This document shows, one piece after another, positions 14,085 through 31,760 of a stretch of DNA of 64,000 bases. Source of the stretch: Gymnogyps californianus (Eukaryota > Chordata > Aves > Accipitriformes > Cathartidae); NCBI RefSeq assembly GCF_018139145.2, contig NC_059474.1:44844344-44908343 (forward strand), given 5' to 3'. Below the pieces are notes generated by a model. It was not told the DNA's origin. It ran no database searches and was given only the letters and a program-made list of their open reading frames with translations. The position numbers and the translations under genes are program-made. Within the stretch, counting starts at the first letter, position 1. Each line of letters starts with the position of its first letter.

Positions 14085-14399
14085 TAAAATAAGCCCTGGT
14101 ACTTTTATTAGGGCCATGAAGTGGGGTTGTAAAAAGGTGCTGAAGCAGCTTCATGGGTCGTGGTTCATTAACTCTAATTGTCACGTCTGGATTCCATCTG
14201 ATGGATGGTCAGGTCCTTCCTTTCTCACATCCGTTTTCTCACTGTCTTCATGTGACCAGCTTCCAGAGCTACCTCCTTCAGAAGTATTTCCAACAGTGGA
14301 CTTGGGTAATATTCTAAACCACTTCAGTCATACTTGAACGTGTCTTTTTCTTGTTGGATTTGCTCCTTTTCTTGTACTCTTCCTGTGCGGAGCTTTCCT
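14085..14399 (-). other. SMIM31: SMIM31 terminal exon: last 28 residues, stop and 3'UTR
   Basis: The acceptor GGCTCTATTCTCTTCAG on the minus strand has a good pyrimidine tract and lies immediately before base 14399. The coding part (14399-14314) yields a Glu/Ser start, then a basic stretch EEYKKRSKSNKKK and the end SSMTEVV, stop TAG at 14316-14314. This matches the Glu/Lys-rich C-terminal half expected for SMIM31, although the final residues differ from the human end I remember. The 3'UTR would run to about 14085, just past an AATAAA; the exact cleavage site is inferred. Confidence 0.78.
14104..14109 (-). terminator. Candidate poly(A) signal of SMIM31
   Basis: A canonical AATAAA hexamer on the minus strand lies about 205 nt past the SMIM31 stop codon. 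It is the first perfect one I found after the stop. Cleavage 10-30 nt further on would give a short 3'UTR. No transcript data are available to confirm its use. Confidence 0.5.
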
Positions 14400-17300
14400 C
14401 TGAAGAGAATAGAGCCATCATTAATGAAAAGCATTTTCGATTTTGAGAGATTAAGTTACATAAAAGTTTTCCTACTTGACAAGACTTATTTTTGGAGGTC
14501 AGAAAATCCTTACATACATTAAAAATAGAAAATGTAAAAGCCTTATCGAGCACCAAGTGCCTTCTGATTTCAGGCTTGATATGAGGGAGTGAAGAAGCAA
14601 TGTTTTACATACCACCCACATAAGACAACCACTGAATTTATAGTATGTGGCCATCTGTGTGTTTCCCAAGTTCTTACTTCTTTATTAAAATTAACTGGGA
14701 GCCAAAAGAACATTAACTCTACAGGCAGTGGAAAAGATACGGAATAAGTAAAGAATGTTCCTCCCTTTATTTCAAGCTATTTGTGACTGAAAGTTGTGCC
14801 ATGATTGTTTGGTGTCCTAAGGAAAGGAATTAATGCTTTCAGACCAGTGTCAAATAGCACCTCTCTTTTTAGCAGTAAATATATGTATATGGGCATAGAA
14901 CTACCTGTTTTCCCTACTGGAATTAAAATATTTAAAAAATTTTCAGAACTTGGAATTTATTTGGCAAGTCTAATTCCAAAGCATAACTAAAACCTCATGT
15001 CATGGTAACAGAAGGAATAATCTTTCATTACTATGAAAGACTACAATTTGATTGGTTTTTGATGTGGTTTAAGTATTGTTAAGTACTGTTCTTTAAAATA
15101 AGTAAATAAATAATGCTGTGTTGTTAAACATTAATTTCATTAGCATGATTGGTAGTAGGGAATTTTCTGAAATCAAGAGAAATAAGAGCTGTAAATCTGA
15201 ACACAATTTCTGAGTTTATAAAATCAAAGCCTAAGATTCCATAAGGTTGTCTTTTCTTGGCTGTTAATGTTGACATAAGTATTCAAAAAATCTTTAATTT
15301 TATAGCCCTGATATACTGTGCCAAAATAAAATAATCAATAAACTGTAAGCATGTGAAACAGTTGCAACACTTCCCATGTTACTGGTTTTAAATCTATTGA
15401 ATTGTTTATATGTGTAGACCCTAAAGTTTTGAAAAAATGTCTTATAAATCCATTTTGCAATTAATAGCAGACAGATAAATTCCTAGAATTATTACCAACA
15501 TTAAATATAAGTACAATTATTTTTTTCAAATGCTTTTTCAAGTGTATTCCATTTTTGTTAATGAATTTGTTTTCCTTCAGAATGCCACCGACATGCGATA
15601 TTCCTATCAGAGTTGTCTGATACTGATTTCTCAAAATCCTATCGGCATTTATGTTTCTTTTAAAATATTTCCCATATTGTAAAAAAGGACGAAATGTCAC
15701 AGATAAACTGAGTATCCTACTTCCCACTTCTGTTAACTTGTTAAAAAGGTCACTTTACTAATTGATAAATGCACTTGGATATAGCTATCTATATGACCTA
15801 TGAATGTTAGCACAGTATTATTCTGTTTGTTCAGGTTTATTATCTGAGCAGTGGTTTAATTCTTCTAGTTATAATCCTAAAAAATACAATATACATAACA
15901 AAATTAAAACAGACTATCTTACTCATGTTTCAATATGCCTTGTGACAGTTATTAAAAGCGTCTTCCTATTGTCTCAAAAAAATCTGGTGCCACTCTATAG
16001 TATAAACTCACTATTTCATTCTGGGCTCTGCATATCAGCATTAATTTCATTCTTTTACATCCTCCACTTTTTTATTATTTATTCTAAGTCAGGATCCAAC
16101 CGATCCCAATTTAGCCATAGCATGCTAAGCTCATTAGTCTATAATTCTGCAGTTTTCTCCATAGTACCCATGTGTCTGAGAGCATAAAACAGAGATGAAA
16201 ACTGATGGATTATTTGACAGCATCTCTGGTCTTTAGTCTCACCACACTTTTGTATTTTTATTGTCTGAAAATTGACTTTTTTCCTGCATTTTATCTATAG
16301 GTAAGGAGCTCACTGGCCTTATTTTCACAGTGCAATGTCTTAACTTCAGCCTGCTGTGGGCCTTTTTAATTTTCTTTAATAACAGAAGGAAGTGAGAGGT
16401 GTTTAAATATACTCATAAACCATTTTTATGCAAAAATCTCACTTCTTCAATCTCCGGTGTTAATTTACTTCTTTGGCTTCCACTTTTCTTTTCCTCTGGG
16501 AAGCTCTACTAATTTCCTTCATGTTGCAGTTTCATATGCTTCCTAGTCCATGTTTTCAGATGTTTGACTTAGCTGTATAAAACAGAATGTATTTTTTGCT
16601 TTGATGGCATCCAAACCCTGAAATTCATCATTAGGGAGTTACTCCATTTCCAGTTTTTTTCTCTTGGACCACCACTAGCTGTTTTTAAATTGCAGTCTTT
16701 GCATAAGCTGAACATACTTAGGCTCTGATATCTGATCTATACAATCTGCCATCAAAGAAAATGAGGCCAACATATATTTGACCTGTTGCATAAATTTGCA
16801 GCTAGGAAAAATATTATATTCCCTGAGAAGAATGCTGGTGCCTTTAGATGTTGTGAAGTCTAGTTTGATTTTCTTTCTTTTCTTTTCTTTTTTATTATTC
16901 CCTCATCTCCATCTACTCCTCCGTACTTTCGCCATAATTGGCTGGTCCTGAAGTCCTTAGGCATCTGTGTTCCTACCTTTAAAATATGCACTTTTGTTTT
17001 TGCAGACTTTCAAAATACAGTTATCCAATACTTAAAATATTTGTCTAACCTGTCCTTTAATTATCTTCTCCTGTATTTGAACTGTTACTGGACTCAGGTC
17101 TTTGCTCTTCCCTTGGTAACATACCTTTTTTGAATTGTTCTTTCTGTTTGGGCTCATGAGTCTCATTTGTCTCATTTAGGCTATGGCATGTATCAAACAT
17201 GGCCAATTTATGTTAGTGTAACAAGTTACAGATGAGCCATCCTACCAGTTCATATTGGTGTTCTTAACTTGTCCCTCATGCAAGGAAAGTGCTGTTAGTT

Positions 17301-30876: not shown

Positions 30877-31586
30877 CTAGGAAAAAGTGTAAACGTTTAC
30901 TCGGCTGGCTGTGGAAAGGGACTGCTCTCAATAGAGTAGTTAAATCTTTAGTCAGGAGAATACTACATCCTGGTCAAACTGGTTAAGTAACTTTAGCCAG
31001 TAAGGAAACAATACTGCTGGCTCATTCAAGAATGCAAGTTCAAGCCCATTTTACTGAGGACGTAGTATGTACAGTTGCTCTAGAGGACATTTACAGCAGT
31101 TATTAATGCTACACTTAACTAGATGTCTATATCTATCTGTATCCTATATTTATTTTATATGTATTTATGTGCAATTCATTTAATAACAGGAACATATTTT
31201 GACTCTGAAATAGTAGTAAATAAATCCTTATTAAAACAAAAAGTATCTGTAAAGATCTGTAGGAAAGCATAGATTTTCTTAACACTAAAAATCCTAATAT
31301 ATAAAAAGTTTACCTTCTGTGTAGTGGAAAGTTTAAAACGTGTGAAAGCAAGCCCCAACGTTATAACCGAATTACAAATCAAACCCCAATCAATAGTCCA
31401 GGGATTCTAGAGTCAATGGAAATTTAAAGTGTGTGGTTGCCCACAGGGTTTAGCTCTAAAAAGCAGTCTCCCTGGAATCTTAAAACCAAGGAGTCCAATA
31501 CATTTGTCCAGAGAAGGTGTGAAAAATCAGAAGCACATAAAAAAATGAAAACAGCTTGCAGTAAATAAAGGAAAGCCGGCACTTAC

Positions 31587-31760
31587 TGATTGCCAGGAAT
31601 TTGTGTGTATATTCCATTGGGGTTTCTTCAAAATCATCCCAGTTCTGTGAAATGATTCAGTATCATGGACTGAGTTAATCACTCACAGCTGGAAGGATCT
31701 AATGTACTGTTGGTTCCCTGACGCTTTTCAGTTGCTGCCTCGCTCGCGGCAGGTACAGTC
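31587..31760 (-). other. SMIM31: Probable SMIM31 5' noncoding exon (5' end approximate)
   Basis: On the minus strand a consensus donor, AATCA|GTAAGTGC, follows base 31587. It is 710 nt upstream of the acceptor of the first coding exon, a typical first-intron length. The segment just upstream (about 31680-31760) is locally richer in GC and CpG than its surroundings (for example GCCGCGAGCGAGG), consistent with a promoter-proximal exon. I see no TATA box, so the transcription start cannot be placed. Another possible donor, CTGTGAGTGA, lies inside the segment near 31690. Inferred from splice signals and position only. Confidence 0.45.

Follow-up and report, generated by a model that had tools for sequence, protein, structure and literature searches.

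MLN/myoregulin and DWORF are single membrane helices, and SMIM31 resembles them in having a short ORF within a transcript that used to be catalogued as noncoding. Their reported target is the calcium pump SERCA, unlike the junctional partners reported for SMIM31. The human SMIM31 locus was carried as a cDNA-supported GENCODE lincRNA (LINC01207) until a 2019 paper made it coding (PMC6886504), which bears out the statement in a first-pass annotation of the present DNA that the mammalian locus was long listed as noncoding. It was reported in that paper that the 71-residue human CDS is conserved to coelacanth, and that the second coding exon was missed by PhyloCSF and rests on protein alignment and 3-base indels; a legend describes the locus as highly transcribed in gastrointestinal tissues of both human and mouse (PMC6886504).

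The mouse Smim31/BC030870 transcript is described as the lncRNA EPR and its peptide as EPRp, the translation of which was demonstrated by antibody detection (PMC6488594). EPRp-FLAG was reported to co-immunoprecipitate with ZO-1, cingulin (CGN), paracingulin (CGNL1), cortactin (CTTN) and myosin-9 (MYH9) and to localise at cell junctions, and overexpression of EPRp led to more continuous cingulin staining, in which direct and indirect scaffold roles are not separable (PMC6488594). In mouse mammary cells, most of the transcriptome effects of the EPR transcript were found to be independent of the peptide (PMC6488594), and a later colon paper calls the effect of the peptide on expression very limited (PMC10250242).

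Structure and identity of the gene

The window, a 64,000-nucleotide stretch of Gymnogyps californianus DNA, contains a gene which, as judged by the encoded protein, is an orthologue of SMIM31 (mouse Smim31/EPR, human LINC01207). The gene and its junctional peptide are already in print, and the window represents a correct find of a known gene. Its features were as follows:

30747..30858, minus strand: first coding piece, 112 nt, with the start codon, a short N-terminal segment and the membrane span
14314..14399, minus strand: second coding piece, 86 nt including the stop codon TAG, located by tblastn with the tail of P0001
14400..30746, minus strand: intron, 16,347 nt, phase 1, GT...AG
30859..30876, minus strand: 5' untranslated part of the first coding exon, 18 nt, acceptor by consensus only
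14104..14109, minus strand: AATAAA polyadenylation-type signal, beginning 205 nt past the stop codon, by consensus only

The first coding piece opens with ATG, codes for residues 1-37 plus one base, and is followed directly 3' by the donor AAG/GTAATA. The second codes for the charged tail (residues 38-65, ending TEVV), and its acceptor, TCTATTCTCTTCAG, consists of a pyrimidine-rich stretch and then AG. When the 112-nt and 86-nt pieces were joined, a single 65-residue frame was obtained, MELPFTNLEVAFILLAFVIFSLFTLASIYSDPHDNKEEESSAQEEYKKRSKSNKKKTRSSMTEVV. The split minus-strand gene seen in the first-pass annotation is therefore real, with an in-frame join and a GT-AG intron. The AG acceptor before the 18-nt untranslated part, TTTTTCCTAG, was placed by consensus only. 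An in-frame TAA starts 9 bases upstream of the ATG, so that no translation can enter from upstream in the SMIM31 frame.

Between 13000 and 30746 there are 1350 AG sites. The exon 2 acceptor has 12 pyrimidines in 15 bases, and it is one of 50 sites that are at least as rich. Twelve of these 50 leave at least 28 open codons, the true acceptor being among them. With 12 comparable sites, the splice consensus alone is too weak to pick exon 2, and it is homology that decides the pairing. The tblastn check proposed in the first-pass annotation gave a clear placement: the tail of P0001 alone matched the window at 14400-14317 with an E value of 5e-13, and all 12 avian-type tails (P0001-P0012), searched alone, placed exon 2 at the same positions. 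The joined form also occurs in P0001, P0003 and P0004, whose contigs are at longest 1165, 2413 and 2787 bases (P0001 has one contig). These contigs are too short to hold the 16,347-nt intron, and the joined form most likely reflects a spliced transcript; an intronless copy may be an alternative source. The contig ORFs P0049, P0063 and P0064 run from exon 1 into the intron, and the read-through letters of P0063 and P0064, GNNLK, are identical to those of the window. Several mammal models (e.g. P0104, P0113 and P0115) continue as NEGK past exon 1, which we infer would fit a phase-1 GTAA donor at the same codon.

When some 5.8 billion proteins were searched at E ≤ 0.01, 162 matches were obtained, the best of which was 97% identical across all 65 residues, in agreement with the earlier assignment to SMIM31. 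Details were taken from the 120 matches listed of these 162. Among the matches listed, P0001 was the best (97% over all 65 residues), and the closest full-length entry from a named species was an unnamed product of snowy owl (P0002, 92%). Emu small integral membrane protein 31 (P0009) was 83% identical over 100% of the query, and a partial limpkin SIM31 (P0005) was 93% identical over 91%. Several matches aligned across the splice junction over the whole query. Most of the listed relatives were named SMIM31, SIM31 or small integral membrane protein 31, and some were unnamed, hypothetical or uncharacterised products. Birds were the nearest of the named species, in keeping with the avian source of the window.

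The window protein bears the features of SMIM31: 65 residues, a TAG stop, the MELP-T-LE ... SIY N-terminus and span, and two coding exons. Compared with the hominine entry P0037, the N-terminus and span were 27/29 identical, which agrees with the earlier statement that this part is nearly as in the human protein, and the charged tail and two coding exons are shared. The two differ in length (65 residues in the window against 71) and in the exon 2 tail, where there were 11/28 identities and P0037 ends in EAVEL, the window protein in TEVV. The family was also found in sharks (P0109, P0131) and in three fishes (P0129, P0132, P0133) which we take together as eel-group fishes; a second search that contributed to these entries listed 120 of 198 matches. 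With the eel protein P0129 as query, five matches were obtained: P0129 again, a further pair of eel-group fishes, a frog and a contig. The fish matches in this search, whose sensitivity is limited, were from the eel group only (Anguilla, Synaphobranchus, Aldrovandia; 3/5 including the query), a pattern that hints at a loss of SMIM31 in other teleosts.

Human SMIM31 presumably lies at 4q32 with APELA as its neighbour. With a human APELA query, the best hit in the window had an E value of 0.032 and was not convincing, and that gene may lie outside it. A Pfam scan of 20 of the 39 stop-to-stop ORFs of at least 90 aa gave no match at E 0.01, ordinary exons being shorter than 90 aa, and within these 20 ORFs the first-pass claim that no other gene is recognisable in the window held; an Rfam scan gave no match at the gathering score, and a tRNA scan found none. 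Four copies of a repeat of about 600 bases were observed (21593-22176, 22452-23069 (inverted), 42201-42813 and 61261-61843; 62-98% alike by segment), two of which lie in the SMIM31 intron in opposite orientation. The edge of this repeat, GTTGTGGTTTAACCCCAGC, resembles what we take to be an avian retroviral LTR. At 5142-5383, a GAG triplet is repeated about 80 times.

Membrane span and proposed anchor role

In 21 orthologues chosen by hand from 131 proteins, 26-29 of the first 29 residues were identical to those of the window, and 8-26 of the 28 residues at 38-65; the first 29 residues were completely identical (29/29) in owl P0002 and emu P0009. Thirteen of the 29 N-terminal positions were invariant among 46 distinct N-termini, a count made without Xenopus P0128 (Ser at position 6). 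P0128 was included in a test on 47 distinct N-termini, in all of which E9 and S27 were kept (47/47); P0132-P0134 were outside both counts. By eye, E9, I13, A16, F20, F23 and S27 show a spacing of 3-4 in the span. Permutation tests on the 47 distinct N-termini from the 131 proteins gave no significant one-sided helix interface, either at 100 degrees (p 0.09-0.24) or with an angle scan (p 0.28-0.80), and such an interface was rejected as unproven.

The AlphaFold2 model of P0001 contained one confident helix, at residues 7-29. The mean pLDDT was 67.5 overall and 95 in residues 11-20, and it was at most 54 per ten-residue block beyond residue 30. Residues 1-29 contain no K/R and two D/E, and residues 44-65 contain eight K/R and three D/E. 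From these charges and the cited EPRp work, we infer that the N-terminus, which is without lysine or arginine, would lie outside, that residues 7-29 would span the membrane, and that the lysine-rich tail, of low confidence in the model, would lie in the cytosol.

The most likely role of this 65-residue, single-pass micropeptide is that of a small membrane anchor for epithelial junction scaffolds; for this bird, the role would follow from the mouse work together with orthology. As an anchor, SMIM31 would gather junction and cortical-actin scaffolds and favour junction assembly in gut-type epithelia. Its C-terminal end may add a PDZ contact, one that would be dispensable for the published associations. 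The suggestion that the span does the work is unproven: the span is extremely conserved, but the one-face interface was not significant, and the partners in print belong to junctions and the cytoskeleton.

These same observations bear on an alternative in which the span pairs within the membrane with a channel, pump or receptor, in the manner of KCNE or phospholamban, and the link to junctions is secondary. KCNE has a single span and a charged cytosolic tail, as SMIM31 is predicted to have. A near-invariant span with E9 and S27 kept throughout would suit such pairing, and a weak likeness to the Pfam family ISK_Channel (E 0.02) was observed. This likeness was below the cut-off, however, at 15.1 bits against a gathering score of 22.1, and the protein is not a member of KCNE/ISK_Channel (PF02060); the Pfam search gave nine weak matches in total and none at cut-off, eight other families also scoring 11-16 bits. 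Since the one-face test was not significant and the partners known from the mouse paper are scaffolds and cytoskeletal proteins (PMC6488594), span pairing as the main role appears unlikely.

It was also considered that the transcript, as a chromatin-binding lncRNA of the EPR type, is the main functional product and the peptide a minor by-product. A stop-mutant EPR transcript was reported to give most of the same expression changes in mouse mammary cells (PMC6488594), and in the later paper EPR is presented as a lncRNA that acts in the colon in vivo (PMC10250242). The SMIM31 protein, however, is preserved in sharks, eels, birds and mammals, with 13/29 positions unchanged among the 46 distinct N-termini, and a purely noncoding RNA would not keep a protein in this way. 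This conservation argues for a coding role, and it is quite improbable that the transcript is the main product; both the EPR transcript and the SMIM31 peptide may matter.

Last exons of bird models and the upstream region

Among the 120 listed matches there were 24 named bird records (23 species). With hits on the 5.1-5.4 kb GAG repeat removed, the tail fitted exon 2 best in 9 of these records and did not in 15. Nine of the 15 other tails matched elsewhere in the window intron with E values of about 1e-4 or better, at the following sites:

16899-16702, minus strand: one tail
24752-24663, minus strand: one tail
26844-26736, minus strand: three tails
27753-27188, minus strand: one tail
29981-29920, minus strand: one tail
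30271-30209, minus strand: two tails

Two more matched weakly a short way past exon 1, at E values of 0.001 and 2.6e-4, and for the remaining four nothing better than E 0.002 was obtained in the window. The expectation that annotation misses the gene thus held for the 15 of 24 named bird records without this second exon, unless some of their tails are real minor isoforms, as some may be. Judged by their matches, the other second exons in public bird SMIM31 models are probably errors, and these alternative last exons were set aside as, most likely, mispredictions from intron sequence, whether conserved or ordinary. The intron DNA at 26736-26844 (minus strand) is like the predicted last exon of the emu, goose and canary models; in the window it carries a frame shift and stops, and so has the look of conserved noncoding sequence and not of an exon.

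That the bird ORF at 30858-30747 is really joined to a different last exon, for example the piece 26822-26736, is scarcely credible: another tail is present in the 15 of 24 named records among the matches listed, and emu, goose and canary share a similar one matching 26844-26736, but their tails start at different places, the emu piece splits into two frames with 10 bases between them in the window, a second emu entry (P0009) bears an exon 2 type tail, and P0001, P0003 and P0004 join exon 2 type tails on contigs of at longest 1.2-2.8 kb.

Upstream of the coding exon, the first-pass annotation had placed one more feature:

31587..31760, minus strand: proposed noncoding 5' exon, unsupported, with donor TCA/GTAAGT

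By hand count, this donor at 31587 has 6/9 consensus bases, and 13 other sites within 30877-35000 score better, at 7/9; the proposed exon was not upheld. If real, 31760-31587 joined to 30876 (minus strand) would create a 24-codon upstream ORF overlapping the SMIM31 start codon. Positions 34051-34131 (minus strand) match 27 residues (70%) of the N-terminal extension that P0009, the emu model, carries. The window has an internal stop in this segment, which may nevertheless belong to a genuine 5' exon region upstream in SMIM31.

The C-terminal end

The tail follows a pattern of an acidic stretch after the span, then a lysine block, then a recurrent Glu-x-hydrophobic C-terminus. In an alignment of 27 rows, Lys48, Lys55 and Lys56 were each kept in 90% or more. 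In 22 full-length rows, chosen because the tails could be aligned throughout (those that were partial or had other tails were set aside), a Glu-x-[VILM] end was present in 16, the window (TEVV) included, and the triplet occurred at 5/736 internal tail places; the last residue was V, I, L or M in 20/22 rows, against 45/714 internal residues. The six rows without the ending were a snake (Lys at -2), a frog and P0016 (both Gln at -2), P0029, P0037 and P0069, the tails of the last three having E-A-V followed by two more residues. Three of 34 contig ORFs were unspliced, and the ending was present in 23 and absent in 8 of the other 31; neither these counts nor those from the 22 rows are independent, the rows being related and many of them bats or rodents by likeness. 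The ending was absent from shark P0109, salamanders P0078, P0105 and P0121, frog P0108, the frog-like P0103 and the eel-group fishes. Xenopus P0128 has a longer tail, which ends in PEQI. The earlier view of a free tail keeping only its Glu/Lys character was contradicted by the conserved lysines and the recurrent end.

An acidic residue at -2 with a hydrophobic last residue thus recurs in the orthologues. Such a Glu-x-hydrophobic-COOH end resembles a class III-type PDZ ligand, and by this likeness the C-terminal end of SMIM31 may be a docking site. The HEK-293 construct is described as carrying FLAG at the ORF's 3' end (PMC6488594), and the EPRp-FLAG of the junction experiments is taken to be the same 3'-tagged construct. 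Since EPRp with a FLAG end binds ZO-1 and reaches junctions, a free C-terminus is not needed for those contacts. The term PDZ is absent from the main text of PMC6488594, and among the papers searched the only one to contain both SMIM31 and PDZ was a gene-expression study with a single mention of SMIM31.

It is conceivable, if doubtful, that SMIM31 is a two-ended junction adaptor, in which the span sets it in the epithelial membrane and the Glu-x-hydrophobic end serves as PDZ ligand to a scaffold of junctions or of polarity. If this were true, a C-terminal tag would have hidden the PDZ contact in the published work, and squirrels, hominines, a lemur and a peccary would have moved the end by one or two added residues. 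For the family, the window contributes one further SMIM31 orthologue. The recurrent C-terminal end offers a simple, testable reason why the tail, besides the span, may matter, and it suggests that SMIM31 may be ill served by studies with tags at the C-terminus.
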